From positions 1 to 25,408 of IMG/VR virus record IMGVR_UViG_3300025122_000138: 25,408 nt of DNA. One strand, written 5' to 3'. Positions within the stretch are counted from its first letter, which is position 1, and each line of letters begins with the position of its first letter. The notes beneath the pieces were generated by a model. The model saw only the letters and a list, made by a program, of their open reading frames with translations, was not told the origin of the DNA and did not search any database. Both the position numbers and the translations under genes were made by a program. Positions 776-22,838 of this stretch are shown here, piece after piece. This DNA is from a virus.

Positions 776-804
776 ATTATCTCATAGGCAGAAGAAAATG
801 TCAA
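776..804 (-). promoter_or_regulatory. Sigma-70-type promoter overlapping an upstream stop codon
   Basis: On the - strand TTGACA (799-804) and GATAAT (776-781) are separated by 17 bp. The TGA inside TTGACA is also the stop codon of the KOW-like gene ending at 801. It should drive the 214-aa gene at 105-749, with a leader of roughly 20 nt holding the GGGAG ribosome-binding site. Confidence 0.85.
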
Positions 805-1016
805 GAGATATTTGATTTTTTTTGCGGTTTAGATACGAATTTTAAGTTTGCTCTACGGTGGCGTACCTTTCCTGGGCCATCGAACCAGTGAACATCAATG
901 GGGTACATGCCGCTTTCGCGTATCTCAACAATAATTCCTGTTTTCTTCCGCATCGCCTGGCAATATCCCGTGCCTCGACCGGCAGAAGAAAGTTCAACTA
1001 AATCACCGACTTTCAT
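801..1016 (-). CDS. Small KOW/SH3-like protein (MKVGDL family), copy 1
   Basis: A 71-aa protein starting MKVGDLVELSS, followed by TGIIVEIRES and a WFDGPGKVRHRRANLKFV segment. The pattern GDLV / G-I-I-V-x-I / V-x-W / L-x-x-V is that of a small five-stranded SH3-like or KOW-type barrel, used by NusG and several ribosomal proteins for RNA or protein contacts. The start ATG lies within the end of the upstream gene (14-nt overlap ATGAAAGTCGGTGA) and is preceded by AGGAG. The basic RHRR patch and Lys-rich tail would suit nucleic-acid binding, but no function is known. It is one of about nine related small genes in this window. Confidence 0.8.
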   Translation of the reverse strand: MKVGDLVELSSAGRGTGYCQAMRKKTGIIVEIRESGMYPIDVHWFDGPGKVRHRRANLKFVSKPQKKSNIS

Positions 1017-1209
1017 TGGCCTCTCCTAGTACCTTGAGTCTAAATTTTTGAATAAAATAACGCTCCCCTTTGTGTAATATCCAGATGTCACCGGGACTTC
1101 CTGATTCAGCCACAATTAAAACTGGCGCACGAGTTTGATACAATTCGCGTACCCAACTTGGCGCACCCGTTGAAAGATTGCGAACTACTGCTAAGTCACC
1201 GGGTTTCAT
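1003..1209 (-). CDS. Small KOW/SH3-like protein (MKPGDL), copy 2
   Basis: A 68-aa protein starting MKPGDLAVVRN. A longer frame extends 19 codons upstream, but the internal ATG at 1209 was chosen because it aligns with the MK-x-GDL starts of its relatives, is preceded by GAGGCAGG, and gives the same 14-nt overlap (ATGAAACCCGGTGA) with the upstream gene. Strand-like segments are APVLIVAES, DIWILHKGERYF and FRLKVL. The protein ends NESR, read from the same bases that start the next KOW gene in another frame. Its role is unknown; it is less similar to the others in the middle than at the N-terminus. Confidence 0.75.
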   Translation of the reverse strand: MKPGDLAVVRNLSTGAPSWVRELYQTRAPVLIVAESGSPGDIWILHKGERYFIQKFRLKVLGEANESR

Positions 1210-1504
1210 TGCCTGCCTCAATATATGGTATGCCTGCGGGTAAATCGCCCGAGACGATTCCGCCATGTTTGGCGCAAACCAGTGAAATTCTTTCTGCTGG
1301 AACGTATCCGTAGACTGTATTTGTTGGTTTTTTTGGGTCTTCGGCCCATTCCACCAACAAAGGCTCAGGTTGCGACGGGTAGCCGACTTCGACGCTAGTA
1401 TATTTTACAGCGTCGTTCACTCGTGGGCTGCAATACGCGGTGTAGTTCGCTTGCACGCTCATTGTAAATCCGTCTTTACAAACAATTTCTTTATTCAACG
1501 TCAT
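1196..1504 (-). CDS. Conserved phage hypothetical protein
   Basis: A 102-aa protein starting MTLNKEIVCKDGFTMSVQ, with later segments AYCSPRVND, SVEVGYPSQPEPLLVEWAED, TVYGYVPAERISLVCAKHGGIV and SGDLPAGIP. From memory, proteins with this series of motifs recur in marine and environmental phages, always unannotated. Its ATG overlaps the TGA of the GTG-started gene upstream (ATGA), which indicates translational coupling, and its 3' end is fused to the start of a KOW gene. It has no KOW signature itself and no membrane segment or recognised catalytic motif. It sits in the middle of the KOW island and is presumably co-translated with it. Confidence 0.8.
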   Translation of the reverse strand: MTLNKEIVCKDGFTMSVQANYTAYCSPRVNDAVKYTSVEVGYPSQPEPLLVEWAEDPKKPTNTVYGYVPAERISLVCAKHGGIVSGDLPAGIPYIEAGNETR

Positions 1505-1680
1505 TGCTTACCACCTTTGCTAAGTACATCCACTTCATCCCACCAACACATCCCTCTTTTGCCAGTGCTGACCCAAATCACATGGAGCCGCGTGTCGTCA
1601 ACCTGAGCAGCTTCTTGCACGCGCACAACTACGCCGAGAGTGCCGTACTTTCTCATCCGTATCAAATCACCGACTTGCAC
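1501..1680 (-). CDS. Small KOW/SH3-like protein with GTG start, copy 3
   Basis: A 59-aa gene that is easily missed because it starts with GTG and is under 60 codons. Translation gives MQVGDLIRMRKYG, TLGVVVRVQEA, RLHVIWVST and WWDEVDVLSKG, matching the family pattern: GDL, then G-x-V-x-V, then V-x-W, then a final D-V-L strand. The GTG lies in the same position as the ATG of its relatives, in a 14-nt overlap GTGCAAGTCGGTGA with the end of the upstream KOW gene. Its stop TGA overlaps the next gene's ATG. The frame is fully open from 1680 to 1501. No clear Shine-Dalgarno precedes it, so it probably depends on reinitiation after the upstream stop. Confidence 0.8.
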   Translation of the reverse strand: MQVGDLIRMRKYGTLGVVVRVQEAAQVDDTRLHVIWVSTGKRGMCWWDEVDVLSKGGKQ

Positions 1681-1852
1681 TGATGACTTTGATCCATTTT
1701 TTGTTCATCGCAAATGGCTGCGAGTGGTCCTCTAAGTTTACCAGCGTCACGGCATTGCGTACACGTCCGAACGAGTCCGAAGCATTCAAGCTCGTTATTA
1801 TATAAGTCCCTGTTTTCGCAGGGGCTATTGTAACTAAATCGCCAACTTTCAT
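1667..1852 (-). CDS. Small KOW/SH3-like protein (MKVGDL), copy 4
   Basis: A 61-aa protein starting MKVGDLVTIAPAKTGTYIITSL, then GRVRNAVTLVNLED and a closing KKWIKVI strand. It shares the GDLV start and the overall size and strand pattern of its neighbours. AAGGT lies 8 nt before the ATG, inside the preceding KOW gene's 3' end, and only 4 nt separate the two genes. Its own last codons (SASR, stop) are read from the same bases as the GTG start of copy 3. Function unknown. Confidence 0.78.
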   Translation of the reverse strand: MKVGDLVTIAPAKTGTYIITSLNASDSFGRVRNAVTLVNLEDHSQPFAMNKKWIKVISASR

Positions 1853-1856
1853 GAAT

Positions 1857-2036
1857 TTATACCTTTTTCACACTCCAACTAAGAACGTCGGTATAATCAA
1901 AAGTGTTGGCACCAAAGGCCACTCTCACAATTTGATGTCCATCGCTCCAGTCTTTCAAAATAGTAACCTTCCCAATTCTACCACATTCGTCATTATTTTT
2001 GGAAATGACCTTAACCTTGTCTCCAATTCTAAACAT
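1857..2036 (-). CDS. Small KOW/SH3-like protein (MFRIGDKV), copy 5
   Basis: A 59-aa gene read directly from the sequence. It starts MFRIGDKVKVISKN, continues CGRIGKVTILKDW, then HQIVRVAFGANTF and ends VLSWSVKKV. G-x-I-G-K-V-T-I after an I-G-D-K-V-x-V strand is the classic KOW turn (turn glycine plus alternating hydrophobics), the clearest KOW-type sequence in this group. The start has AGAGGT 7 nt upstream. It is the first gene after the structured gap at 2037-2206, so any readthrough or control by that element acts on it first. Its N-terminus differs from the MKVGD type, and it is not entered by a 14-nt overlap. Confidence 0.78.
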   Translation of the reverse strand: MFRIGDKVKVISKNNDECGRIGKVTILKDWSDGHQIVRVAFGANTFDYTDVLSWSVKKV

Positions 2037-2206: not shown

Positions 2207-2398
2207 TTAATTCTTATACTCTTTTTTAGCTATTTCTAAATCATCAACATGCTCGCTGTAGACGATTCCATCAATCCAGTGAACTTTAGCCCACTTTCTT
2301 CCTTCCGTCCCTACAACAACGCCTGTAATGTCCTTTTTTGTACTCTCGCTCATTTTCTTGAATGATTTAGAGTATCTTACTGTATCACCGACTTTCAT
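2207..2398 (-). CDS. Small KOW/SH3-like protein (MKVGDTV), copy 6
   Basis: A 63-aa protein starting MKVGDTVRYSKSF, then DITGVVVGTEG, KWAKVHWIDGIVYSEHVDDLEIA. The TGVVVG / A-K-V-H-W / V-D-D-L-E segments match the family closely. A first in-frame ATG exists 6 codons earlier, but the second (2398) was chosen since it gives the standard 14-nt ATGAAAGTCGGTGA overlap with the end of the DUF7417-like gene. It is the last gene before the structured RNA gap. Confidence 0.8.
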   Translation of the reverse strand: MKVGDTVRYSKSFKKMSESTKKDITGVVVGTEGRKWAKVHWIDGIVYSEHVDDLEIAKKEYKN

Positions 2399-2558
2399 TA
2401 CAATCCCCACTTTCAATTAAACTTTTTGCAATACGACCATAATGTCCTTGCAATTTCCATGCCAATCCGGTATCAATGAGTTCTTGGAAAAGGGATATTA
2501 CCTCTCCTTTGCTCATTTCTCCGTTTTCATATGCAATAATTTTGCTAACATTAACCAT
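2385..2558 (-). CDS. DUF7417-like small phage protein
   Basis: A 57-aa protein starting MVNVSKIIAYENGEM, then EVISLFQELIDTGLAWKLQG and HYGRIAKSLIESGD. I recognise the motif series K-I-I-A-Y-E-N-G, LFQ-L-D-G-L-W-LQGHYGR-A-LI from a widespread small phage family, which I believe is named DUF7417. No function is established, though a helical nucleic-acid or RNA polymerase binding role has been speculated for proteins of this size. The start lies 1 nt after the stop of the 168-aa gene. The family core ends at about residue 52. The extra NESR tail comes from the overlapping start of the KOW gene, so the natural stop may have been replaced when that gene arrived. Confidence 0.85.
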   Translation of the reverse strand: MVNVSKIIAYENGEMSKGEVISLFQELIDTGLAWKLQGHYGRIAKSLIESGDCNESR

Positions 2559-3126: not shown

Positions 3127-3333
3127 TTATTTTGATAAAAGTTCAAGTTCGTCTGCGGTAAGCCACCAATCGCCGCTAGAATTAAATTGAATATGAAATT
3201 GTTCTGTGCTGAAAGATGTGTTAGAATCAATTATGATTCCCATCTCTCCACATTCTATTTTCCCAATGATGGCACCAGCTTTGCCACCTATTTCAATATC
3301 AAACTTAGCTTTAACGAGACTGCCTATCTTCAT
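3127..3333 (-). CDS. Small KOW/SH3-like protein (MKIGSLV), copy 7
   Basis: A 68-aa protein starting MKIGSLVKAKFD, then AGAIIGKIECGEMGIIID, FHIQFN and WWLTADELELL. The longer frame starting 14 codons upstream was rejected: the internal ATG aligns with the MK-x-G start of the family. It overlaps the end of the 63-aa membrane protein by 23 nt rather than 14, so this junction differs slightly from the others. E-L-E-L-L-S-K at the end is the usual closing strand. Role unknown. Confidence 0.72.
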   Translation of the reverse strand: MKIGSLVKAKFDIEIGGKAGAIIGKIECGEMGIIIDSNTSFSTEQFHIQFNSSGDWWLTADELELLSK

Positions 3334-4129: not shown

Positions 4130-4753
4130 TTAATTAGCTGTTTGGAGTTGTTTAAAGATGATATTTTTAGATAAAAAATAACACATACTAGCCAATAGTA
4201 TACCAGATAAAACGTCCACAATAAAGTGTTGTTTCAAAGCCAATGTAGAAAGTGCAATTAAAGCTGCCCAAACAAAATAAACCGTTTTAATCCATGGCCT
4301 ATTCTTTGCGTATTGCGTCAAGCCCACAAAAAATGCCAAGAGCCATGAAAATGTTACGTGACCCGATGGAAAAGTATTATTTGCTCCATCAATCATCCTC
4401 GTCAGTTCAACTAGCCAGCCAGAAATAGATGAGGGATCAACAAAAGATTCACGAGGATAAAAAGAAGGGAAGAGAACATAGAATATGCTCAATGTAACCG
4501 AAGCAATCATATAAGCTGTGAACGCAGAAAAAAATACTTCTTTCCTGCTTACAAAACTAAACATTGTTACAAGAATCACAGGAATTAAAGTGTGATAAAC
4601 CCAAACAAACTCTGGAACGAACGGAATTACATGATCGAGACTTGTTAGAAAATTATATTCATTGACTGTGAAAAGTAATTGGATGCCGAAATAGGTTACG
4701 AAATTAAAAATAATAAATAGGGTGAGATATTTTGCTTTCGTCCCATTCGACAC
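4130..4753 (-). CDS. PAP2-superfamily membrane phosphatase
   Basis: A 207-aa multi-pass membrane protein with about six hydrophobic segments. The signature is F-P-S-G-H-V-T-F-S at 128-136 (active-site His132) and L-A-L-K-Q-H-F-I-V-D-V-L-S-G at 171-184 (His176, Asp180). These correspond to motifs C2 and C3 of the PAP2 / inositolphosphotransferase-type family, which act on lipid phosphates or pyrophosphates at the membrane. The classic KxxxxxxRP motif C1 is not obvious. The start is GTG at 4753 with GGAG 10 nt upstream; no ATG is available nearby. A host lipid or undecaprenyl-phosphate substrate is plausible but not shown. It follows a 157-nt leader and precedes the LeuA-like gene. Confidence 0.82.
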   Translation of the reverse strand: MSNGTKAKYLTLFIIFNFVTYFGIQLLFTVNEYNFLTSLDHVIPFVPEFVWVYHTLIPVILVTMFSFVSRKEVFFSAFTAYMIASVTLSIFYVLFPSFYPRESFVDPSSISGWLVELTRMIDGANNTFPSGHVTFSWLLAFFVGLTQYAKNRPWIKTVYFVWAALIALSTLALKQHFIVDVLSGILLASMCYFLSKNIIFKQLQTAN

Positions 4754-5225: not shown

Positions 5226-5489
5226 TCATGTTTCCTCAAGTACTTCTTCGTGAAGTGTTTCTTCGCTGTGCATATGATGATAAACTTCGCCAATATCGTC
5301 TGCTAGGACTGCCAGTTTTGATTGTACCCATTCTGGTAAATCTCTTTTGTCTGCTACCAAATCCATTAGCATGTTCGAGTATTCATTTATCTTTAATAGC
5401 TGTTTTTCTGCCATGTCTCCTTCGGAGTCGTGGCTTTCTGCTAAGACCTCTCTTACATATTGCTCAAGAATTGTTTTCGTCAGTTTCAT
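5226..5489 (-). CDS. Conserved small helical phage protein
   Basis: An 87-aa acidic, all-helical protein. The first 20 residues (MKLTKTILEQYVREVLAES) look like the short N-terminal MKLTK-x-L-x-x-x-I/V-x-E segment found on many marine-phage proteins. The remainder has KQLLKINEYSNMLMDLVADK, LPEWVQSKLAVLADDIGEVYHHM, a series that I recall from marine phage genomes without assigned function. It overlaps the hydroxylase gene's end by 26 nt, so the two are translationally linked. The N-terminal tag may be a virion-targeting or propeptide-like sequence, but that is inference. Confidence 0.75.
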   Translation of the reverse strand: MKLTKTILEQYVREVLAESHDSEGDMAEKQLLKINEYSNMLMDLVADKRDLPEWVQSKLAVLADDIGEVYHHMHSEETLHEEVLEET

Positions 5490-5967
5490 CGTCGCTGTCC
5501 TTTTTTAAATATTTAACTCTCGTACCTATAAGTAGGTCCCAAAAGCTGTTTGTTACTCCCCAATTTGCATCTTGATTGGTTCCCATGTGATGCTCATAGT
5601 GCCAGGGTACATTTTTTTTTGCCCACTCAACATCTTGATGCGCTTTCCAATGAACCCAAAGGTATCTAATTGCACAAGCAACTAATGTAATATAAAACAC
5701 CGGAAAGAATAAAATCAATGGAGAGTGAAGAAGAATTAATAAATTAATTCCCATGACTTCTTTCCTCAATGAAGAATGGAGTGGGCACTGGTCATAATGG
5801 GGGTCTAGCCCTTCATTTTTTCTGCATGCTTTGTGGTGCTCGTGCCAATGAAATGCCCAATAAGATTCTTTATTCTTGCCTAAGCCGTGCAAAATATATT
5901 TATGAATTAACCATTCTAAAAGAGAAGCGTATAAAATTCCAAGCACTGCGGCAAGCACATACCACAT
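5464..5967 (-). CDS. Fatty acid hydroxylase / sterol desaturase superfamily protein
   Basis: A 167-aa membrane protein with hydrophobic segments at about 3-20 and 73-106. It carries the di-iron histidine clusters: H22-x4-H27; H40, H42, H44, H45; H107 and H110; and H123-x2-H126-H127 near the end, followed by the family-like NWGVTNSFWDLLIGTR. The superfamily uses O2 and a di-iron centre to hydroxylate or desaturate membrane lipids, sterols or carotenoids. It is compact for the family but has every histidine block. The start ATG overlaps the preceding stop by 1 nt (TAATG) with AGGA upstream. With the PAP2 gene nearby, phage remodelling of host lipids is an attractive inference; the substrate is unknown. 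Confidence 0.87.
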   Translation of the reverse strand: MWYVLAAVLGILYASLLEWLIHKYILHGLGKNKESYWAFHWHEHHKACRKNEGLDPHYDQCPLHSSLRKEVMGINLLILLHSPLILFFPVFYITLVACAIRYLWVHWKAHQDVEWAKKNVPWHYEHHMGTNQDANWGVTNSFWDLLIGTRVKYLKKDSDDETDENNS

Positions 5968-8890: not shown

Positions 8891-9127
8891 TCATGTTTTA
8901 ATATTCTTTTTCTCCACAAACCATTCTTCGCCCTGATACCAGACCTTCACACATTCATTTCCTGCATTTTCTTCAATCAATAACAAATTTAAAGGTTTAG
9001 TTAGCCTATTAAATTTAATTGGTGTTGGGCCAATATAAGTTTCTTTAGGGTCACGGTCTTTTACTTCTTTATTGTACTGAAGCAATCTTGTTTCTGCTGG
9101 TACATAAACTAAATCACCCTTCTTCAT
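8891..9127 (-). CDS. Small KOW/SH3-like protein (MKKGDLV), copy 8
   Basis: A 78-aa protein starting MKKGDLVYVPAETRL and ending with CVKVWYQGEEWFVEKKNIK, the V-K-V-W-Y-x-G-E-x-W-F-V pattern of the final barrel strands. The middle has an insertion relative to the shorter copies (DRDPKETYIGPTPIKFNRL). It is located 5.5 kb from the main island but has the same 14-nt entry overlap (ATGAAGAAGGGTGA) with its upstream gene, here ending NEEG. That shared junction is the best evidence that it belongs to the same cassette-like family. Confidence 0.78.
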   Translation of the reverse strand: MKKGDLVYVPAETRLLQYNKEVKDRDPKETYIGPTPIKFNRLTKPLNLLLIEENAGNECVKVWYQGEEWFVEKKNIKT

Positions 9128-9440
9128 TCGGGGCCTCGCTCGCTTCTTCTGGCTCCTCTAAACTTTCAAAGTCCTCTACGTTCCCCAGCAGAACATTTTG
9201 GTATCCTGAAAGGATGTGCATGCAATCGGCCAACCTCAAATCAATTCTCGATAATTCTTGACGCACCTCATCCAAAAGACGGACAGCGTTTTTTTCATCT
9301 TCTTTATTTAACAAAGTTAAAGCTTCGTCAAGCTTTTTGGTTAGCGGCCTTAAAGAACTTTCTTTAGTATCATGGATGAGTTTGGCCGTAGTTTGCGGTA
9401 TATCTTCTAACTCAACAGAATAAGTTACATTCACTCTCAT
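9114..9440 (-). CDS. Conserved phage coiled-coil protein
   Basis: A 108-aa protein starting MRVNVTYSVELEDIPQTTAKLI. A long helical region follows with LTKKLDEALTLL, VRLLDEVRQELSRIDLRLADC and HILSGYQNVLLG. I recall the sequence series V-x-Y-S-V-x-L-x-D-I-P, R-x-x-L-x-x-x-D-x-R-L-x-D-C, I-L-x-G-Y from marine phages, with no function attached. The C-terminal 20 residues are acidic low complexity. It has a strong promoter and a GAGGAG ribosome-binding site 6 nt from the ATG, suggesting high expression. Confidence 0.8.
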   Translation of the reverse strand: MRVNVTYSVELEDIPQTTAKLIHDTKESSLRPLTKKLDEALTLLNKEDEKNAVRLLDEVRQELSRIDLRLADCMHILSGYQNVLLGNVEDFESLEEPEEASEAPNEEG

Positions 9441-9822: not shown

Positions 9823-11394
9823 TCACGCTTCAATAACAGCCGAGTTTGTCGTAATTAGTGTAGATGCAACTGAAGCTGCATTTTGCAAAGCGCATCGCGT
9901 TACTTTGGCTGGATCTATAATTCCAGCCTCCAGCATATCAATAACATTGCCATTTGTGAAATCCACCCCTAAACCATCGTCTTCGCCCTCTATTTTCGAT
10001 AAAATTAAATCGGGTGATTCACCTGCATTGATTGCCATTTGTCTCACAGGCTCTTTGACTGCCTCTAAGATGATTTTAACACCCAGTTCTTGACTTTCGT
10101 TTTCAGTTTCAACTTGCAAATCATTGCAAGCCCTTATTAGTGCAATTCCACCTCCTGGTACAATTCCTTCTTGTTGCGCTGACTTTACAGCCTCCAAAGC
10201 ATCTTCGATCCTGTGTCTTTTTTCTATCATTTCAATTTCTGTGGCTGCCCCAACTTTAATAATCGCGATGCCGCTAGCCAATCTCGTAATTCGTTCTTGG
10301 ATCTTTGCACATTCATGAAGATTTTCCGTTTGACCAACTTCGGTTTTTAATGTTTCTATTTTCTTTGCCACCTCTTTTAAATCTCCGGTGCCTCCAACAA
10401 TTGTAGTAAAATTCTTTGAACATTCAAAAGTCTTCGCTGAACCAAAGTGATTAAGCGTGACATCTTTTAATCTCAGATTATTTTCCCTACCAATTAATGT
10501 TGCCCCAATTGAAACAGCCAAGTCCTTTAAAATGTTTCTCCTTTCTTCTCCGTAGCGAGGAGCTTTCACGGCGGCAATTTTTAAAGTGCCCCTAACGGCA
10601 TTCATTATGAGGGCCGCAAGTGCCTGCCCCTCAATGTTTTCAGCAACAATTATACATGGCCGAGCTTCCCTTGCTACCAATTCCAATACTGGCATCATTT
10701 CCTCTACTGCTTCTATTCTTTCGTCTGTAACTAGAAGTAGTGGATTCTCATATTTAACAACGCCTCGTTTTTCATCCGTAATGAACGCACTGGCTAAGTA
10801 TCCAGAATCAAAGCGAAAGCCTTCCACCACATCTAGGCTTGTCTCAAGAGAACGTGCCTCTTCAATTGTTATTGCACCGTCTTTGCCAGCTAAATCAACA
10901 GCAGTTGCAATTAATTTGCCAATCGTCGAATCGCCGTTTGCAGAAATGGTTGCAACGTGCGCTATGTCTTCTTCGGATGTAATTGGAGTAGAAACTTCTT
11001 TTAGATTATTAACAATGGCTTCTACGGTTTTGTCAATTCCTTTTTTAAGCTCTACGGGAGGTGCACCCGCAATTAAATATTTTTGAGCTTTATCTAAAAT
11101 TGCTCTCGCCAAAACTGTTGAAGTCGTTGTGCCATCTCCAGCTTCTGAATTTGTTTGGGCGGCGGCTTGTTTAATGATCTGGGCACCAACATTCTCGAAC
11201 GGATCTTCTAGTTCGATGAACTTTGCCACTGTAACCCCGTCCTTTGTAATGATTGGGTTGCCTTTTTCTTTGTGATGTAATATTACGTTTCGGCCGCGTG
11301 GCCCCAGCGTAGAAGCTACGTTATCAGCTAATACATTAACACCTTTTAAAATTTTTTGTTGAAGTTTTAGATTAGATTCATATTTTCGTGACAC
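9823..11394 (-). CDS. groEL: GroEL-type chaperonin
   Basis: A 523-aa group I chaperonin, co-linear with bacterial GroEL. Landmarks are G-P-R-G-R-N-V at 31-37, K-D-G-V-T-V-A-K at 51-58 with Asp52, [11 protein letters not shown] with Asp87, [11 protein letters not shown] at 276-286, and R-I-E-D-A-L with Asp398 followed by [10 protein letters not shown]. Asp52, Asp87 and Asp398 fall at the E. coli positions, so ATPase activity is expected. The apical hydrophobic patch is retained (MMPVLEL at 233-239). The C-terminus stops at NSAVIEA without a GGM tail. The start is GTG with GAGG 5 nt upstream. No GroES is encoded in the window, so either the host co-chaperonin is used or none is needed, as reported for some large-phage chaperonins. 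Neighbouring probable virion genes suggest a role in folding them. Confidence 0.97.
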
Positions 11395-15041: not shown

Positions 15042-15731
15042 TTACTTTTTAGTGCGTCGTTTTGCGCCTTGCAATCTTCGAGCTACGCGCTTCGTGACTT
15101 GTTCAACAATGTGCTCTCTTTTTACGCGATTGGCAACGCGGCGAGATAATTCTTCCATGAAAAGTTCTTGTTGTGCAGCGTGGCGTCTTGCCTCTTCAAG
15201 TCCGGGGGGCAAACCTTCTTCTTCTTCTTCTTCGGCTGCGGGTAAGAAATCTGGTGGTGGCATTTCTTCTCCGGGCTCGCCAGGCTCGCCTTCGGGCTCT
15301 CCGGGTTCAACGTCCATGTCGAGGCCATCTTTTTCAGCCTCGCCTTCAATTACGGACAATATGCGACGATACACATCTTCTACTTCTGGACTAGCTTCTG
15401 CTGCTGGTTCGCCCTCTGGTGGGACGCCCAAATCAGCTTCTGGTTCGCCCAAACCAGCGTCTGGCTCCAGAGCTTCGGGGGGCGGTCCTGGCAGCGGCTC
15501 TTCTTCGCCGGGCACTTGCTCCTCCAAGGTTTTAAGTATATCGCCCACATGATCTTTTCTTGGTGGGTGCGGTTTGGATTTCAGATCCTCGCTGCCCTGC
15601 TCTTCAAGCTCTTCTGCTTCTTCAAGCTCTTCTTCTTCAAGCTTCACGCCTTCGTAAAGCTTTTCGGTGCCTGCCAATTTCATGAATCGCTTAACGGTAT
15701 CTTCATTTAAAAGTTTCTTACCCTTGCTCAT
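15042..15731 (-). CDS. Acidic Pro/Glu-rich phage protein with LLNE-type N-terminal tag
   Basis: A 229-aa protein. Residues 6-25 (KLLNEDTVKRFMKLAGTEKL) are nearly the same as in the downstream 160-aa protein. Then come long Glu-rich and Pro-Gly-Glu-rich low-complexity stretches (about 30-165, with PGEPEGEPGEPGEE-type repeats), a helical region and a strongly basic end (VTKRVARRLQGAKRRTKK). An acidic body with basic tail would suit a scaffold, prohead core or internal head protein. AGGAG lies 7 nt before the ATG. The large open frame on the other strand over this region is a by-product of the skewed composition. Confidence 0.75.
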   Translation of the reverse strand: MSKGKKLLNEDTVKRFMKLAGTEKLYEGVKLEEEELEEAEELEEQGSEDLKSKPHPPRKDHVGDILKTLEEQVPGEEEPLPGPPPEALEPDAGLGEPEADLGVPPEGEPAAEASPEVEDVYRRILSVIEGEAEKDGLDMDVEPGEPEGEPGEPGEEMPPPDFLPAAEEEEEEGLPPGLEEARRHAAQQELFMEELSRRVANRVKREHIVEQVTKRVARRLQGAKRRTKK

Positions 15732-15783
15732 TAGTTCACTCCTGTAAATAAAAAGGTTTTCTAGATATAAATAGTCTTTTGTT

Positions 15784-16014
15784 TCAGTAATCGTATATTT
15801 TCTTTAATTTTTGTAAGGCTGCATCTTGAATCTGTTTCACCCTCACAATACTTATGTCCAATCGCTTAGAAACCTCATTTAATGTCATCTCTGGGTTCTG
15901 CCCTACGGCTATCGCGGTGCAATTCATATCTTCGCCATAGTTAATCCATAATCGACACTTTCTCTCTTTGCAACCTTCTTGATTTTCTAAACATTTTCTA
16001 GCGCAACCTATCAT
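15784..16014 (-). CDS. Cys-rich sigma-70 region 4-like regulator
   Basis: A 76-aa protein. The first half has cysteines at C4, C8, C15, C20 and C32, arranged so that a small zinc site is possible, around K-C-R-L-W-I-N-Y-G-E-D-M-N-C-T-A-I-A-V. The second half, MTLNEVSKRLDISIVRVKQIQDAALQKLKK at 43-72, is a helix-turn-helix like region 4.2 of sigma-70, which reads the -35 element and contacts the RNA polymerase flap. I recall such Cys-plus-region-4 proteins in marine phages. It lacks region 2, so it could redirect polymerase only together with another factor. ATGA overlap with the upstream gene. Confidence 0.8.
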   Translation of the reverse strand: MIGCARKCLENQEGCKERKCRLWINYGEDMNCTAIAVGQNPEMTLNEVSKRLDISIVRVKQIQDAALQKLKKIYDY

Positions 16015-16337
16015 AAATCTCCATGCTCCTTTTCTATAATATCAAATATGTTTTCAATCTCATCTTTATTTAAGCCAAATTGCTTAATTGTTTCTTCTTC
16101 TTTTAATCTCGCTCGTTTAATTTTATTACGTCTGGGGTTTGACATAGCTTTCTTTTCTTTTAACTCTTCAACGAAGGCTAGCATATGTTCGTTTCTATCA
16201 ACGTAGCCAGACACCACATCAATAAAAAATTCACGGATCTTTAAATCATCATAATGCAAACGAATCTTTAAATCAGCATGAAGCTTGTCTGTGCTTTCAA
16301 AGCAAATTTTCTTAATGATGTTTCCATAATCTGGCAT
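16011..16337 (-). CDS. Conserved phage protein, ribbon-helix-helix candidate
   Basis: A 108-aa protein with one short strand (HADLKIRLHYDDL, about 20-32) followed by two helices (KIREFFIDVVSGYVDRN and HMLAFVEELKEK), the order found in Arc/MetJ-type ribbon-helix-helix DNA-binding proteins. The C-terminal half has R-R-N-K-I-K-R-A-R and KQFGLNKDEIENIFDIIEKE. I recall the whole series from marine phages, unannotated. It is coupled to the sigma-region-4-like gene by an ATGA overlap and to the preceding gene by TAATG, so a transcription role is consistent with position. Confidence 0.7.
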   Translation of the reverse strand: MPDYGNIIKKICFESTDKLHADLKIRLHYDDLKIREFFIDVVSGYVDRNEHMLAFVEELKEKKAMSNPRRNKIKRARLKEEETIKQFGLNKDEIENIFDIIEKEHGDL

Positions 16338-17356
16338 TAAGTCTTTCCTAAAATGTGAGTTCGGCTTTCGCCCAAGCCCGCGTTTGTTTGTTTGATAAAC
16401 TTGGCTTTTGTTTGTAGTTCTAAAATTGTTCTCGCGCCAGAATAAGAAAATCCAGAAACAATTCCATTTCTTAAATCTTCTAAAATGGTCTTAACGCTTC
16501 CCTTATATGGAATGAACGTAGAAATGCCCTCATTGGACGAATACCGACCACGCCATTTAATTTGAGCATCTTTGCTAGCCATACCGCGATATTCCTTTTT
16601 AACGCCGCCGAGTGTAACAACTTTTTCTCCTGGGGATTCATCTGTTCCTGCTAAAAGCGAGCCAAGCATTACAAAATCTGCTCCCGCGGCAATTGCCTTA
16701 ACAATGTCGCCAGAAGAGCGAATGCCGCCATCGGCAATAATCTTTGCGGATCTGTCTGACATGGCACATTCAAATATAGTTTGCAATCCTGGCATGCCGT
16801 GTCCAGTTTGAATTCTTGTACTACAGATTGAGCCGCCGCCAATATTACAACGAATACTATCTGCGCCCCAATCTGCTAAATCATTAAAGCCTTCTAAAGT
16901 AGCAACATTGCCAGCCATAATGTGTACGCTGTCGTGGAGCAAATCTTTTATAGATTTGATCGCATGCTCTACCAATTTATGATGACCGTGTGCGACATCA
17001 ATACATAAAACATTTGTTCCGTTGCGTGTCAAATTTGCAGCTCGTTCTAAAAAATCATCTGTAACACCTACTGCTGCGCCAACGTTTGGGTTATATTCCC
17101 AAGCTTTACGGACTATTGCACATTGTTTTTCAACTGTATTGTAACGATGAACGATCCCTAAGCCGCCCACTTCTATCATTGAGGTGGTCATGTTGAGTTC
17201 CGTAACGGTATCCATTGGCGCTGAAATTACTGGAAAATCTAAGTGGATATTTTCATCCAAATCATTTCCGATCTTTACTTCTTTTCGACTCTCAATGTCT
17301 GAATATTGTGGTATCAATAATACATCATCGTATGTTAAGGCTTCTTTAAATCTCAC
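16337..17356 (-). CDS. IMP dehydrogenase / GMP reductase family enzyme, no CBS domains
   Basis: A 339-aa (beta/alpha)8 enzyme. It has [11 protein letters not shown] at 7-17, APMDTVTE at 46-53, GAAVGV at 93-98, D-V-A-H-G-H at 120-125, catalytic loop G-G-G-S-I-C-S-T-R with Cys178, A-D-G-G-I-R at 208-213, and the flap N-E-G-x-S-T-F-I-P-Y-K-G around 275-286. IMPDH makes XMP from IMP; GMPR makes IMP from GMP. The usual CBS pair near residue 95 is absent. The flap favours GMPR slightly and the rest favours IMPDH, so I leave it open. The usual V-G-I-G-P-G-S is changed to C-N-I-G-G-G-S. The start is GTG with GGGAGG 6 nt upstream. Likely role: purine pool control. Confidence 0.92.
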
Positions 17357-17540
17357 TAATGACCTCCCAATTCTCTTTTATTAGTTTAAGTGGCGCTGTT
17401 GATGCACTCGAATCTCCTGAAAATACAACCTTCGCATATTCTTCACTTCGGTATTCAAGGTGTTGCTCGGACATAAAAATATCCAATATTATGCCCGTGG
17501 TTCCGGCATAATTATGTTTTATCAAATCACCGACTTTCAT
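17346..17540 (-). CDS. Small KOW/SH3-like protein (MKVGDLI), copy 9
   Basis: A 64-aa protein starting MKVGDLIKHNYAGTTGIILDIF, with YAKVVFSGD and a closing WEVISEI strand. G-T-T-G-I-I-L-D-I is close to the matching part of copies 1 and 6. It enters through the identical 14-nt overlap (ATGAAAGTCGGTGA) at the end of the DUF3310 gene, about 15 kb from the main island, and its own end overlaps the GTG of the IMPDH-like gene by 11 nt. Function unknown. Confidence 0.8.
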   Translation of the reverse strand: MKVGDLIKHNYAGTTGIILDIFMSEQHLEYRSEEYAKVVFSGDSSASTAPLKLIKENWEVISEI

Positions 17541-17757
17541 TGTTCTCTAGCTCTTCAATCATCTTTTCAAGATACCAGCGAGCTTTCTTTAAATCTTGTA
17601 AAGCTTTGCCCTTATATTTATGCCGGGAAACATATTTAATTATATTGCCTTCGGCATATCCCATCCGCCAAGAATTGATAAATTCATATGGCTCAATGGC
17701 CTGTTCGCCTTTCCAATTAATGTTATAGTGTTTTGGATGGTTAACGTTGTCGCTCAT
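17527..17757 (-). CDS. DUF3310 family protein
   Basis: A 76-aa protein with the DUF3310 pattern: V-N-H-P-K-H-Y-N, then G-E-Q-A-I-E-P-Y-E-F-I, then G-Y-A-E-G-N-I-I-K-Y-V-S-R-H-K-Y-K, and D-L-K-K-A-R-W-Y-L-E-K-M. The family is common in phages, often labelled 'SaV-like' or nucleotide-kinase-like, and has no proven activity. The core ends around residue 70. The final NNESR is read from the overlapping start of the KOW gene. ATGA overlap with the preceding membrane gene. Confidence 0.9.
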   Translation of the reverse strand: MSDNVNHPKHYNINWKGEQAIEPYEFINSWRMGYAEGNIIKYVSRHKYKGKALQDLKKARWYLEKMIEELENNESR

Positions 17758-17939
17758 TTTATTCCTTTTTTACAATCCGGATGGCACGGTGCGTGCACAG
17801 GGCATCCAATTTCGCAATTATCTTCTGGTGCTTCTATCTTGGGTGCAAATTCAAATGCAAAATAAAGAATAGCGGATATGATTAGCACGCTAACTATAAA
17901 TGCCAGCGCCGCCACTTTCTCTTCTCTTAAAAATTTCAT
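17754..17939 (-). CDS. Small membrane protein with Cys-rich tail
   Basis: A 61-aa protein with one hydrophobic segment at about 11-31 and a short tail containing C42, C46, C52 and C56 (D-N-C-E-I-G-C-P-V-H-A-P-C-H-P-D-C). The four cysteines and two histidines could hold a metal or form disulfides; the tail side (cytoplasm or periplasm) cannot be told from the sequence. It is coupled by ATGA overlaps at both ends. No family recognised. Confidence 0.65.
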   Translation of the reverse strand: MKFLREEKVAALAFIVSVLIISAILYFAFEFAPKIEAPEDNCEIGCPVHAPCHPDCKKGIK

Positions 17940-18226
17940 TTTTCAACTTCCGCTCCTTTTTCTAGATGCTCTTTAAAATCTTGAAGGATATTAACTGCTT
18001 TTTCCCAACACTCAGGACAATAAAGGCGAACAATTCCTTCTTCTTGTCGTACTACAACATTCCATGTTGTTACTTGTTCTTTATTCATCTTATCAAATGA
18101 TTCCTCACAAGTCAAACACTTATCTGGAATTTTATCAAATAAAGCAACTTTAGCTGCCATCTCTTTTTCGGCGCTCTTTTTTGCTTTGTTTGTTTTCTTC
18201 CTTCTTAGTTTTCTTTCTAAAGACAT
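17936..18226 (-). CDS. Conserved phage zinc-binding protein
   Basis: A 96-aa protein with a basic N-terminus (M-S-L-E-R-K-L-R-R-K-K-T-N-K) and two CxxC knuckles, C37-L-T-C40 and C70-P-E-C73, forming a probable four-cysteine zinc site around the strands TWNVVVRQEE and IVRLYC. I recall the series D-K-x-P-x-x-C-L-T-C, W-N-V-V-V-R, V-R-L-Y-C-P-x-C-W-E-K-A from marine phage proteins without known function. Start and stop are coupled to both neighbours by overlaps (1 nt and 4 nt). It may bind nucleic acid. Confidence 0.78.
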   Translation of the reverse strand: MSLERKLRRKKTNKAKKSAEKEMAAKVALFDKIPDKCLTCEESFDKMNKEQVTTWNVVVRQEEGIVRLYCPECWEKAVNILQDFKEHLEKGAEVEK

Positions 18227-18693
18227 TATCTTTCTCCCGTGGAACCAAATCCACCTTCGCCGCGTTTTGAATGAAAGTTTAAAAACTCGTCACTTTCAAC
18301 TTCTTCAACTTTACAATGAACAATCGGTATCAATATTGCTTGTGCAACTTTGTCGCCTGGCCTAATCATTTGCGTTTCAGCGCCAATGTTGTGAAGGTTT
18401 ACATACACTTCGCCATTATAGCCAGGATCTACAACGCAAGCGCCCACTATTAATTGTCGCTTGTAAGCTATGCCTGATTTGTTTTTAACCTCCAACATAT
18501 AACCGTAAGGAATCTCGACTTTTATTCCAGTTGGAATCAATCTAGATTCTTTTGGTGGAATAAAGAAATCTTTTGAATCATATAATTTCTTTTCTCCATT
18601 CGGGCAATAAAATAAATCCATTCCAGCATCCATTTGATGTGCTCGAACTGGCAATCTTGCTTTTGGCCGCATCCTGTGTACTTTAATTCTCAT
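18226..18693 (-). CDS. dut: dUTP diphosphatase
   Basis: A 155-aa trimeric-type dUTPase with all five motifs: D22-A-G-M-D-L-F (motif 1), N71-K-S-G (2), V88-D-P-G-Y-N-G-E-V-Y (3), R111-P-G-D-K-V-A-Q (4) and R144-G-E-G-G-F-G-S-T-G (5). It hydrolyses dUTP to dUMP and pyrophosphate, which keeps uracil out of DNA and feeds dTMP synthesis. The ATG at 18693 was chosen (ATGA overlap with the AP2-domain gene, GGAAGG upstream) rather than a TTG four codons earlier. Residues D22 and D89 are conserved. It sits in the replication block next to the polymerase. Confidence 0.96.
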   Translation of the reverse strand: MRIKVHRMRPKARLPVRAHQMDAGMDLFYCPNGEKKLYDSKDFFIPPKESRLIPTGIKVEIPYGYMLEVKNKSGIAYKRQLIVGACVVDPGYNGEVYVNLHNIGAETQMIRPGDKVAQAILIPIVHCKVEEVESDEFLNFHSKRGEGGFGSTGER

Positions 18694-19394
18694 TTGCCTT
18701 CCCAATTCCTTGAGAACTTCGAGCCAATTTTAAATCCTATAATGGTATTCTCTTCAAGAGAGACTTTGAAGCCAAAATCATTACTAGAAAAGTAAACTTG
18801 GACATGATCTTGAAGATCTTCAAAGCTTGAAGCTTGAGAAGAAAACTCTCCATATTCATCTTGAATAATTTGCAGCGCTTTTTCTTCGCGAGTTTCTTGC
18901 CAGACATAATAATTTGTGCCTTTGCTTTTATGAAATTTGATTCCAACATTTTTCATAGCCCATTTTTTGAAAAGGGCGTCTAAGCCAGGATAAGAATAAC
19001 TGGCCCCTCTAAAAGAAATTCTGTTCGTATTTTTTAACAACTCTTTTCTCTCGGATGGTCGCAAGTTAAAAATCTCATCGACTAGTTCAGCGGTTTGGAA
19101 GGCGACTTCTTCATTCTTTTTCAACAAAGAAATAAATTCTTTCTTAATAATTTCAGTCGTCTCCTCGCGCACCGGCTCCTCTTCCTTGAAATAAAAATCA
19201 AACTCTTGTTGAGCTTCATTTTCAGAAAAGATTTTACGTGCATATGCTTGACCGGCTTCAAAAGCTGTGTCAAACCTGCCAAGTCTTTCTTTCGCGTAGA
19301 CGGCAACGAATGGCTTTCTGCAACCTTCGTTGCGTTTAACCCCTCTGTAGCCGAATTTATTTCTATTACTTTTAATAGGTTCTACATAATTCAT
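18690..19394 (-). CDS. AP2/ERF-type DNA-binding domain protein
   Basis: A 234-aa protein. Residues of about 11-55 read N-K-F-G-Y-R-G-V-K-R-N ... K-P-F-V-A-V-Y, then L-G-R-F-D-T-A-F-E-A-G-Q-A-Y-A-R, the AP2 pattern (YRGV, three strands, LG-F-T-EEA-AY helix). In phages this domain usually sits in HNH homing endonucleases, but no HNH motif is seen here. The remaining 170 residues are charged and helical with a segment S-F-R-G-A-S-Y-S-Y-P-G-L-D-A-L-F and give no family. AGGAGG is 5 nt before the ATG. DNA binding is inferred from the fold; a role in gene control or replication is open. Confidence 0.82.
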   Translation of the reverse strand: MNYVEPIKSNRNKFGYRGVKRNEGCRKPFVAVYAKERLGRFDTAFEAGQAYARKIFSENEAQQEFDFYFKEEEPVREETTEIIKKEFISLLKKNEEVAFQTAELVDEIFNLRPSERKELLKNTNRISFRGASYSYPGLDALFKKWAMKNVGIKFHKSKGTNYYVWQETREEKALQIIQDEYGEFSSQASSFEDLQDHVQVYFSSNDFGFKVSLEENTIIGFKIGSKFSRNWEGK

Positions 19395-19406
19395 TCTTTC
19401 CTCCTT

Positions 19407-22400
19407 TTATCCTAAAAGCCTAAAATTATATTTAATTGATCGTGTGCTAAAACCCCATTGTTCATCATAATCCAGTCTGCTCATGTAAGGTCGATTGAGA
19501 TGAATAATATCTCTTTCCGGCTTTACGCCCCAGCATTTGATGCTGCTTTGGATTGAAGTGCTATCAATTGTTTTTATGATCCAATAAGGTTTTCCATTTT
19601 TAGTTTTCTTTTCGATAACTTCTCTCGGAATAAACCAGGCAACTCCGAGGTCATTATCCCATTCTCCAAGTGGTGGAACTTGATAATATTCTAATCTTTT
19701 AAGGATGTTTTCATCCAGTACTAAATCCATTGGAAAAATACCAGTTAATGAAACCAAATTTTCAATCCTCTCTTTGTTTGAAAAGTTACCTTCTGGTTTA
19801 TAAAGTTCTATGTTTTCTTCAAGTTTCTTTTTGTTTTTTGGCCGCTCGACCACTGTCGCAGTCCAGAAATGTTTTGGGCCTGAAAATCTATCATCAATTA
19901 GGCAATTTAAAGCTTCGCTTCGAGCTAAAACATCAAGCGCCTTTTTATTTAATTTGCTATAAACAATATCTTCATTAAAAAGGAAGTCTTCAATTACGTT
20001 AAATGGCCGGTTGTTAATAATCTGTTCCATTGCCTTATCTCCCAAGCCTTTAAGAGAAGTTAAGGGCTGAATTAATGTTTTATTATCTTCGGCAATTTCC
20101 CAAACAACACCAGATTTATTTACATCAATTGATTGAATCTTGAATTTAAATTTCTTTGCAAGGTTAATTGCTTTTTCTTTTCGAGTCTCCGGCTCTTTAT
20201 CTAAGAATGCTGCCACCCACTCCACTGGATAGTAATTAAACAACCAAGCACACTGATAAGAGAGGGCAGAATAAGAAACCGCGTGAGACTTATTAAAGCC
20301 ATAGCCTGAGAAATACTCAAACTTTTTCCAAAGAGAGTTTGCCGCATGCTCGGTCATATTCTTTTCAACACACCCTTCAACAAACTTAGCCTTTAGTCTA
20401 TTTTTCTGCTTTGCGACGGCTCCTGTGCCTCGCTTTGTGAGAAGTTTCCGAAGTTTATTGCCCTCATCTAAACTAAAATTCTTTCCTAGCTTGTGTGCCA
20501 ACAATGCAATTTGCTCCTGGAAAATCAAAAACCCGTAAGTTTCTTTTGTCACTTCCTTGACAATATCATTTTCATATACTATGTTATCAGGGTTTTCTTT
20601 TGCCTCAACATATAATTTATCAACATCTGCTCCAAGAGGGCCAGGCCGATAAATAGAAGTGATGGCAGCAATATTAATTATGTTATTTGGCTTTGCTTTC
20701 TTGCAAAAGTTTTGTGCGCCTTCTTCTGTGAACTGAAATATGCCAGCCCATTTGCCCTTGTGGAAAATATTAGTGTATACTTCTTGGTCATTAAAGTCGA
20801 TCTTGTCAGGGTGGAGATTCTCATTATAATAATCTTGAATCTCTTCAAACGTTGGGTTTTCAATATTGTGATGTCGTTTCAATATGTGTGCAATCGCACC
20901 TTCGATCATTTTTAATGTTGAGAGCCCAAGAATATCAAACTTAATGAACCCTAAAGGTTCAAGATGTCTAACGTTTTGACCTTCTGACCATGGAGTTTGT
21001 GTAATTCCTCCGCTATTAATTAAAGGTATATGGCGATTTAAGTTTTCTCCAATGACTACGCCCCCTGCATGACGAGAAACTGATCTCGTTTGCCCATATA
21101 AAACATTAATATGGTCTGCAATGTGCGGATACTTGCTTAAAAATGCTTTTAATGAATCAGAATATTCCATTACTTCTTCAAATGTCGGTACATAAACTCC
21201 TGATTTTATTCCGTGTTTCTTCTTAGCGGCAGGTGTGGCCTCTCTCATCATTCGCGAGGTTACAGGATTGACTTCCGTAAAGGGAACCCCATAAAACTTT
21301 GACACATCTTTAATTAATGAACGGAGCTGCAAAGTATTAAAGTTGGAAATTGGAACCACAGTGTTGCTGCCCCATTCTTCAATTAGTAATTCTTTCAGCT
21401 CCATCGGATCCGAAACATCATAATCAATATCTGGATAGTCTTTCGCGTCTCGTCTTAGAAATCGAGAAAACAAAAGCTTATATTTAATGGGATCAACTTG
21501 AGTAATTCCAAGGACATAAGCAACCAATGAACCTGCTGCTGAGCCACGTCCGGGCCCAGTTAATTGAATTTCATTTGCTTTTGAGGCAACCGCATTCATA
21601 GTTAAAAAATACTTACTAAAGCCGCGTTCGCTAATAACTTCTAATTCTTCACGCAAACGATTAACGTATTCTTTATCATGATGTAGATTCATGTGACGTG
21701 CCCTGTCGATGCACAGCCCTTTTAAAGTTTGCTCTGCTGTAAGTTCGGGTGGAACAACAAAATCTGGCAGATGTACAGTGTTGTCTGGAATAAAGCTCTC
21801 AATCCGATTATGGGCTATGCTATGTGTTTCTTCAATTGATTGGCGAATTAAGTCATCATCATATTCAACTCCGCAGCAATCTGAATAGTACTTGTAAGCG
21901 TCCCACATTTGTTGTCCGTTTTTTGGATATAACTCGTAGCCAATCTCATCAACACTGGAAGGTAAAACGTCTGAACAATAGCTTGGTTTAGACATAGATT
22001 TGCCTAGCCAGCCCAATCTTTTATATAGCTCGCGATCTTTCCAAGCATCAGGATTTGGGTAGTGGCTATCTGCTGTGGAGATTAGTTTGATGCCAAATTC
22101 TCTGTGTAGTTGTATAATATTTTTATTTAATATATGCTGTTCTGGTGTTTTGCTCCACTGCAGTTCGCCATACCAACGATCTCCAAATATATCCATCATT
22201 TCCATTGTTGTGTGGCGCATTGCATCCATTACCGCATCTTCGCCGTATTCTCTGTTCTCCCAAAAGTCCCCTGCATAAACGCCACCTAAGCATGCGCTAG
22301 CGGAAATTACGCCTTCGTTATATTTTTTTAACATCTTATAATCGATACGAGGAAAGCGATAAAAGTTTTCTTTAGAAAATGATTTAGAAATCATTTCAAA

Positions 22401-22838
22401 TATATTATTTAATCCCGTCTGATTCTGCGCCAGCAAAATTAAATGGCGTCGTTTGTTTAAGATGTTCTTAACTGCGCGTTTAGATGTAGATTCATCTTCA
22501 ATTGTCGTTCCTGAGCGCGAGTCGTCGAGTGAAGACTTTGCTTTTTTGTCTGCTTTGACTTTTTCATATTCTCCCCTCCACTTTGCCAGGTTGGGTAGGA
22601 AATATGCCTCTATTCCAAATATTGGCTTGAAGCTTTTCCCTTCTTCTAACATCTTCTTAGCGTGGAGAACTTGATAAGCCATCCCATTCATATTGCCGTG
22701 ATCTGTGAGAGCTAGTGCATCGCTGCCATTTTCGAAAGCAAAATCCATATGTTCTTGCGGATAACCTAAGCCATCAAAAACGCTGCCGGCTACGCTGTGT
22801 GCGTGCAAACCAGCAAATGGAATGTTATTCTTCTTCAT
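19407..22838 (-). CDS. dnaE: DNA polymerase III alpha subunit (family C, DnaE-like)
   Basis: A 1143-aa bacterial-type replicative polymerase. The N-terminal PHP domain shows L11-H-A-H-S, T45-D-H-G-N, G75-I-E-A-Y-F and S-T-A-D-S-H-Y near 254-260. The palm has G428-P-G-R-G-S-A-A-G-S and the acidic P469-D-I-D-Y-D, the two metal-binding aspartates being 470 and 472; further family marks are IYRPGPLG, F-Q-E-Q and G-Y-G-F-N-K-S-H-A-V-S-Y-S. It is close to full DnaE length, with a charged insertion at about 88-125 in the PHP region. It would synthesise phage DNA. Most tailed phages use family A or B enzymes, so this is less usual. The ATG has GGAG 6 nt upstream and overlaps the preceding gene by 14 nt. 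Confidence 0.97.
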   Translation of the reverse strand: MKKNNIPFAGLHAHSVAGSVFDGLGYPQEHMDFAFENGSDALALTDHGNMNGMAYQVLHAKKMLEEGKSFKPIFGIEAYFLPNLAKWRGEYEKVKADKKAKSSLDDSRSGTTIEDESTSKRAVKNILNKRRHLILLAQNQTGLNNIFEMISKSFSKENFYRFPRIDYKMLKKYNEGVISASACLGGVYAGDFWENREYGEDAVMDAMRHTTMEMMDIFGDRWYGELQWSKTPEQHILNKNIIQLHREFGIKLISTADSHYPNPDAWKDRELYKRLGWLGKSMSKPSYCSDVLPSSVDEIGYELYPKNGQQMWDAYKYYSDCCGVEYDDDLIRQSIEETHSIAHNRIESFIPDNTVHLPDFVVPPELTAEQTLKGLCIDRARHMNLHHDKEYVNRLREELEVISERGFSKYFLTMNAVASKANEIQLTGPGRGSAAGSLVAYVLGITQVDPIKYKLLFSRFLRRDAKDYPDIDYDVSDPMELKELLIEEWGSNTVVPISNFNTLQLRSLIKDVSKFYGVPFTEVNPVTSRMMREATPAAKKKHGIKSGVYVPTFEEVMEYSDSLKAFLSKYPHIADHINVLYGQTRSVSRHAGGVVIGENLNRHIPLINSGGITQTPWSEGQNVRHLEPLGFIKFDILGLSTLKMIEGAIAHILKRHHNIENPTFEEIQDYYNENLHPDKIDFNDQEVYTNIFHKGKWAGIFQFTEEGAQNFCKKAKPNNIINIAAITSIYRPGPLGADVDKLYVEAKENPDNIVYENDIVKEVTKETYGFLIFQEQIALLAHKLGKNFSLDEGNKLRKLLTKRGTGAVAKQKNRLKAKFVEGCVEKNMTEHAANSLWKKFEYFSGYGFNKSHAVSYSALSYQCAWLFNYYPVEWVAAFLDKEPETRKEKAINLAKKFKFKIQSIDVNKSGVVWEIAEDNKTLIQPLTSLKGLGDKAMEQIINNRPFNVIEDFLFNEDIVYSKLNKKALDVLARSEALNCLIDDRFSGPKHFWTATVVERPKNKKKLEENIELYKPEGNFSNKERIENLVSLTGIFPMDLVLDENILKRLEYYQVPPLGEWDNDLGVAWFIPREVIEKKTKNGKPYWIIKTIDSTSIQSSIKCWGVKPERDIIHLNRPYMSRLDYDEQWGFSTRSIKYNFRLLG

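Follow-up and report, generated by a model that had tools for sequence, protein, structure and literature searches.

A 14-nt start/stop overlap links small KOW-like genes of uncultured marine T4-type phages

Results

A recurrent junction in front of small KOW-like genes

The window, meaning the whole stretch of 25,408 nucleotides from IMG/VR record IMGVR_UViG_3300025122_000138, contains six places, all on the minus strand, where a small KOW-like ORF opens with a 14-mer whose last three bases are the TGA of the ORF upstream. An earlier note on this DNA had proposed these overlaps, and all six were found where it had placed them, including three identical copies (1003-1016, 2385-2398 and 17527-17540). 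It had also described the upstream genes as unrelated, which does not hold for two of the six, where the gene upstream is another KOW-like one (KOW B ahead of KOW A, KOW D ahead of KOW C). The genes and junctions are the following.

801-1016, minus strand: KOW A, 71 aa; a different KOW stands at this place in the nearest relative, L254
1003-1016, minus strand: junction KOW B / KOW A, ATGAAAGTCGGTGA
1003-1209, minus strand: KOW B, 68 aa, C-terminus ANESR; conserved in L254
1196-1209, minus strand: junction ORF102 / KOW B, ATGAAACCCGGTGA
1196-1504, minus strand: ORF102, a non-KOW array gene, C-terminus GNETR; relatives occur in other contexts (L220/L131: after DUF3310)
1501-1680, minus strand: KOW C, 59 aa; its L254 relative is on the opposite side of ORF102-KOW B
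1667-1680, minus strand: junction KOW D / KOW C, GTGCAAGTCGGTGA
1667-1852, minus strand: KOW D, 61 aa, C-terminus SASR
1857-2036, minus strand: KOW E, without a 14-nt junction
2207-2398, minus strand: KOW F, 63 aa
2385-2398, minus strand: junction DUF7417 gene / KOW F, ATGAAAGTCGGTGA
2385-2558, minus strand: DUF7417 gene, C-terminus CNESR; Pfam E 1.8e-16
8891-9127, minus strand: KOW G, 78 aa
9114-9127, minus strand: junction 108-aa gene / KOW G, ATGAAGAAGGGTGA
9114-9440, minus strand: 108-aa gene, upstream of KOW G
16337-17356, minus strand: IMPDH (guaB) gene, downstream of KOW H and overlapping it by 11 nt; bounds the DUF3310-[cassettes]-guaB site on the right
17346-17540, minus strand: KOW H, 64 aa; dN/dS of 0.13-0.56 in comparisons with relatives; small beta barrel in the structure model
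17527-17540, minus strand: junction DUF3310 / KOW H, ATGAAAGTCGGTGA
17527-17757, minus strand: DUF3310 gene, C-terminus NNESR

Dinucleotide shuffles gave an expectation of 0.11 such sites and never reached six (0/100), so that chance was rejected as their origin. The long ORF at 1003-1266 is an artefact of taking the first ATG, the coupled start lying at 1209. Among the KOW-like genes of the window, the junction is absent at 1857-2036, at the start of 1667-1852 (GGC, no stop) and at 3127-3330. In the related record G010, a 14-nt junction is retained at the place matching 9114-9127, with an upstream end SNESG. Between KOW F and KOW E lie about 27 A in a row (2066-2092) and a segment that is 79% conserved in L254 (2100-2165) and contains an apparent inverted repeat, possibly a terminator. 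Elsewhere in the window lies unusual phage cargo: a PAP2 phosphatase (4130-4753), a fatty acid hydroxylase (5464-5967), GroEL (9823-11394) and the IMPDH gene already listed.

The label 'KOW' is a guess at the level of the fold. None of 52 members scanned against Pfam matched a KOW profile, with only scattered weak SH3/Tudor-like matches, and no Pfam or PHROG family covers these proteins as a whole. The AlphaFold model of KOW H (pLDDT 83) is a small beta barrel of four strands; its best Foldseek match, a weak one, was PWWP (E 0.012), followed by CAP-Gly, IF5A, CarD and Tudor. The proteins resemble KOW/SH3-like small barrels in length, in a G-D near the N-terminus and in the modelled four-strand barrel, but differ in lacking a covering family and in that marginal structural match. 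KOW H is under purifying selection (the dN/dS range listed above).

The junction is widespread in related phages

The junction is not local: it joins hundreds of very diverse KOW/SH3-like genes of 50-80 aa in uncultured marine T4-type phages. An exact scan of viral contigs for ATGAAAGTCGGTGAT found at least 120 stretches. Among the matches listed, with duplicates removed, 84 of 151 small genes with a ATGAAAGTCGGTGAT start shared 14 nt, and 27 shared 4 nt, with an overlapping ORF no shorter than 40 codons, and none of the 17 copies inside long genes was overlapped in that way. In a wider survey of 649 KOW-like genes, 365 had the 14-nt and 106 the 4-nt overlap; most of these came from contigs chosen by the motif, and a set found by peptide agrees. 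For the back-translated scan a single KOW member was used rather than the 52-protein alignment, because the latter was too diverse. In the peptide-found set the 14-nt overlap occurred in 106 of 205 genes (52%) vs 15 of 505 (3%) other genes with a Shine-Dalgarno sequence from the same kind of loci (Fisher p 2e-51; here and below, counts are inflated by shared ancestry and p-values are therefore guides only). The earlier note had allowed that random junctions might give such overlaps at similar frequency, and this comparison shows that they do not.

Large records (about 70-290 kb) carry 4-28 copies of the motif, clustered and almost all on one strand, and 0-3 of the reversed pattern. A gp23-like major capsid protein was found in 16 of 17 related records, which identifies the carriers as T4-type phages; gp23 is not within the 25-kb window, whose gene order resembles that of G010. 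The window also encodes a DnaE-like DNA polymerase III alpha (19407-22838), the phage's relatives being T4-type. Against cultured phages, neither megablast of the window nor tblastn of the array KOW proteins gave a match. RM378, Flavobacterium immuto and Microcystis Mel-JY01, the closest cultured relatives by capsid, hold no copies of the motif. A scan of genome contigs returned 12 matches, several in marine MAG contigs with these KOW arrays, possibly phage contigs; the remaining ones are in-frame within longer genes. One array lies in a record labelled as a bacterial chromosome (L240, CP070664.1, a WOR-3 MAG), as a prophage or a misbinned phage.

The overlap is the core of a coding connector

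At the centre of a standard connector about 25-30 bp long lies the 14-nt overlap. The connector is made up of a Shine-Dalgarno sequence embedded in the 3' end of the preceding gene, the next start codon and a stop in each of the two remaining frames. In its left part, the Shine-Dalgarno sequence (GGAGGTGATCA at its best) encodes the C-terminal strand LEVI of the previous protein, and the commonest upstream C-terminus, LEVI-[SN]ESR, is what GGAGGTGATCA-RTGAAAGTCGG encodes, a stretch in which an extended Shine-Dalgarno sequence runs into the next start. The right part is the KOW start RTGAARNNNGGTGA, with TGA at bases 2-4 (in ATG starts followed by A) and at 12-14. A gene entering out of frame consequently terminates within at most 14 nt, which accounts for the same unit being seen behind 14-nt, 4-nt or no overlaps; and since start, ribosome site and stop all lie in the connector, any two genes joined there retain all three. 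Shine-Dalgarno matches of at least 6 nt were present at 47% of 14-nt junctions vs 7-17% of other classes. GTG starts make up 169 of 365 in the 14-nt class and are less common elsewhere.

Codon usage at the KOW start bears the mark of selection on both frames. A codon 3 with T in third position, which would make the upstream protein end in Trp instead of Arg (CGG or AGG), occurs in 8 of 393 14-nt junctions vs 77 of 298 elsewhere (p 2e-22), and Arg is the last upstream residue in 421 of 471 cases. In three DUF3310 loci (L132, L136, L150) GGTGAT has become GGTAAT or GGTAAC, which preserves the upstream stop as TAA while the Asp of the KOW protein changes to Asn. In a further class with 10-nt overlaps, residue 2 is Gln or Arg and GTA/ATA in codon 3 can yield TAG at 8-10. 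GGT is retained in 63% of 4-nt-linked genes, where nothing forces it, vs a background of 29%; the enrichment is weaker (42%) in genes without a close upstream gene.

The C-termini of upstream genes follow the presence of the KOW gene. Across 80 DUF3310 loci, every gene with an intact KOW at 14 nt ends in [E/A]-x-R, and those with guaB directly after, or with a KOW at 4 nt, have other C-termini. The earlier note had held that upstream homologues ending in N-E-S-R with no KOW behind them would speak against a cassette. Four DUF3310 genes end in ESR or NR without an adjacent intact KOW, and all four keep a KOW remnant, a decayed gene in L140 and L142 and a start stub in L151 and L153, so that this objection does not hold. 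Nineteen DUF7417 relatives lack such a KOW behind them and none ends in ESR; among nine relatives of ORF102 (1196-1504), the NENR end is found only in the one with a 14-nt KOW.

Genes appear to be exchanged at the connector

We found 21 pairs of junctions with the upstream gene in common (at least 85% identity) and unrelated downstream genes, and 20 pairs of the reverse kind; in those pairs, identity ends within or just past the connector. When all loci were aligned blindly, 216 of 232 homology ends near KOW starts fell within -20 to +29 nt, and after collapsing 131 of 149 did so, with about a quarter (0.24) expected. The same unit stands behind different upstream genes at 85-100% identity, one unit is cleanly missing at a junction between L017 and L023, and unit order is permuted among L027, L107 and L052. 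In L254, the nearest relative of the window here, the relative of KOW C comes after KOW B rather than before ORF102, and KOW A is replaced. Swaps do not depend on the 14-nt phase, as they are also seen at KOW starts that overlap the gene upstream by 1 nt or are separated from it by an intergenic gap.

Exchange extends beyond the array. The DUF3310-KOW-guaB site, which lies outside it, has received three different genes in relatives, all of them array genes in L254: between DUF3310 and KOW stand ORF102 in L130, L131 and L133, the MGAPPGW gene in L143 and L145, and the MSVILRHM gene in L151 and L153. The left side of the last is a bare six-codon KOW start with a stop (RTGAAARTCGGTGATAA, translated as MKIGDK or VKVGDK and stop), that is, a connector without its gene; this stub occurs behind DUF3310 in one phage and behind KOW, an unrelated upstream gene, in another. 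The idea that a cassette enters at the 3' ends of genes and supplies their stop codon is thus largely right, as the KOW start does supply the upstream stop, but parts of it change: the main setting is tandem arrays with KOW units one after another, and exchange is not a one-way insertion of KOW genes but runs both ways, with other genes entering in front of KOW (L131, L143, L151). Exchange can also take larger pieces. Between window positions 15601-20757 and L123 the flanks are mostly 99-100% identical, but identity drops to 76-82% across DUF3310 and KOW H (17358-17757). This recently replaced patch of two genes has its ends at gene starts and not at the 14-mer.

Discussion

We consider it likely that a standard connector joins small, mostly KOW/SH3-like genes in accessory arrays and permits exchange at that point. 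Gene swaps would occur at the connector, so that units are deleted, inserted, permuted or transplanted undamaged; as the connector is common to the units, exchange there would damage no gene. Judging from the embedded Shine-Dalgarno sequence, each unit would be translated by coupling or reinitiation from the preceding gene. Homologous recombination at or across the connector is probably the route, and the best supported one: phage RecA/UvsX-type recombination would probably use the shared connector as homology, and a RecA-family gene is present in 17 of 17 records. RecT was searched for and none was found. We lean, by a little, towards the broader claim of a natural system of standard parts, in which the coding connector lets hundreds of small phage genes be exchanged freely through ordinary homologous recombination, as in an integron-like array that has no integrase. 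The diversity of the KOW proteins suggests, as a guess, an accessory repertoire that is rapidly exchanged, perhaps one aimed at host factors.

Selection alone could account for breakpoints at gene ends, because recombination inside genes would often kill them; recombination would then occur anywhere and the connector DNA would not serve as homology. The patch between the window and L123, which ends at other gene boundaries, fits this account, as do swaps at several overlap types. We nevertheless hold it to be rather unlikely, given that the connector sequence is kept where the upstream gene makes no use of it (GGT in the 4-nt-linked genes) and that a bare start stub travels with a non-KOW gene. 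The arrays might instead have grown by tandem duplication and divergence of one KOW gene together with its overlap, the junction being inherited and kept because compact, coupled translation is selected for, and the shuffling incidental. That 272 of 365 upstream partners at 14-nt junctions are KOW-like, and that units have N- and C-terminal signatures in common, would follow from such a history, which we judge improbable: the other 93 partners are different genes, the same unit stands behind different upstream genes at high identity, and non-KOW genes travel between loci together with the junction.

A short conserved sequence at cassette boundaries, in single orientation, is also what a recombinase target would look like, as in integrons. 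Tyrosine integrase (PF00589) was found in 0/17 records, with a positive control detected in 14/14, and serine recombinase (resolvase) in 0/17; moreover, the element varies at positions where coding tolerates it, and the demands of coding, Shine-Dalgarno sequence and stops explain it. We rejected integrase-driven cassettes on the 0/17 counts, and site-specific recombination at the connector appears very improbable. Even less credit goes to the idea that the residues M-K-V-G-D alone create two out-of-frame stops and that the overlaps are meaningless. A Lys at position 2 does give ATGA, and GGT-GAN is enough to produce GGTGA; but the background of GGT is 29%, and the idea was rejected on the 52% vs 3% in controls and on an avoidance of T in codon 3 that depends on the overlap.

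Integron gene cassettes form arrays of small genes in a single orientation with a shared boundary sequence, and the phage arrays are alike in all of this. They differ in that no integrase was found and in having a coding boundary that contains stop, Shine-Dalgarno sequence and start. In lambda, consecutive nin genes are described as linked to one another by ATGA overlaps (Kroger and Hobom 1982, described in PMC8022706). Common to both systems are non-essential small phage genes, tight packing, overlapping stop and start codons and variable content. In lambda, genes of diverse families are joined by the common 4-nt ATGA, whereas here we find one 14-nt overlap with an embedded Shine-Dalgarno sequence and stops in both frames, in hundreds of genes of one small-protein class in T4-type phages. 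When nin-type features were looked for, consecutive small genes did overlap, but the overlap was not the 4-nt ATGA (365 14-nt vs 106 4-nt of 649), and the carriers are not lambdoid (gp23 in 16/17). Mobile regulatory cassettes have been described from T4-type phages themselves (Arbiol et al. 2010, cited in PMC4177764). There, short repeated elements are reportedly linked to shuffling of small accessory genes, a feature found here too. Those elements are reportedly intergenic promoter/stem-loop elements; the element described here is coding, and 14-nt overlaps leave no intergenic space. To our knowledge, neither system has this connector, and no account of these KOW arrays appeared in the largely open-access literature that was searched.

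The connector offers a concrete, testable explanation of how small accessory genes can be reshuffled in phages with reading frames and translation signals left intact: a single repeated element would provide recombination homology together with stop, start and ribosome site. Attention is also drawn to a large family of small proteins in marine T4-type phages that is almost unannotated, and the connector serves as a sequence tag for locating KOW arrays.

Some loci carry other kinds of gene next to these elements. In L144 and L186 a long collagen-like (Gly-X-Y) gene directly follows DUF3310, in L144 between DUF3310 and KOW. In L018 (8637-8801) and L234 (VKVGEEFDWSV...), MKPGD and VKVGE starts are found on small proteins that do not resemble KOW domains, and here the connector start may have become fused to unrelated proteins.
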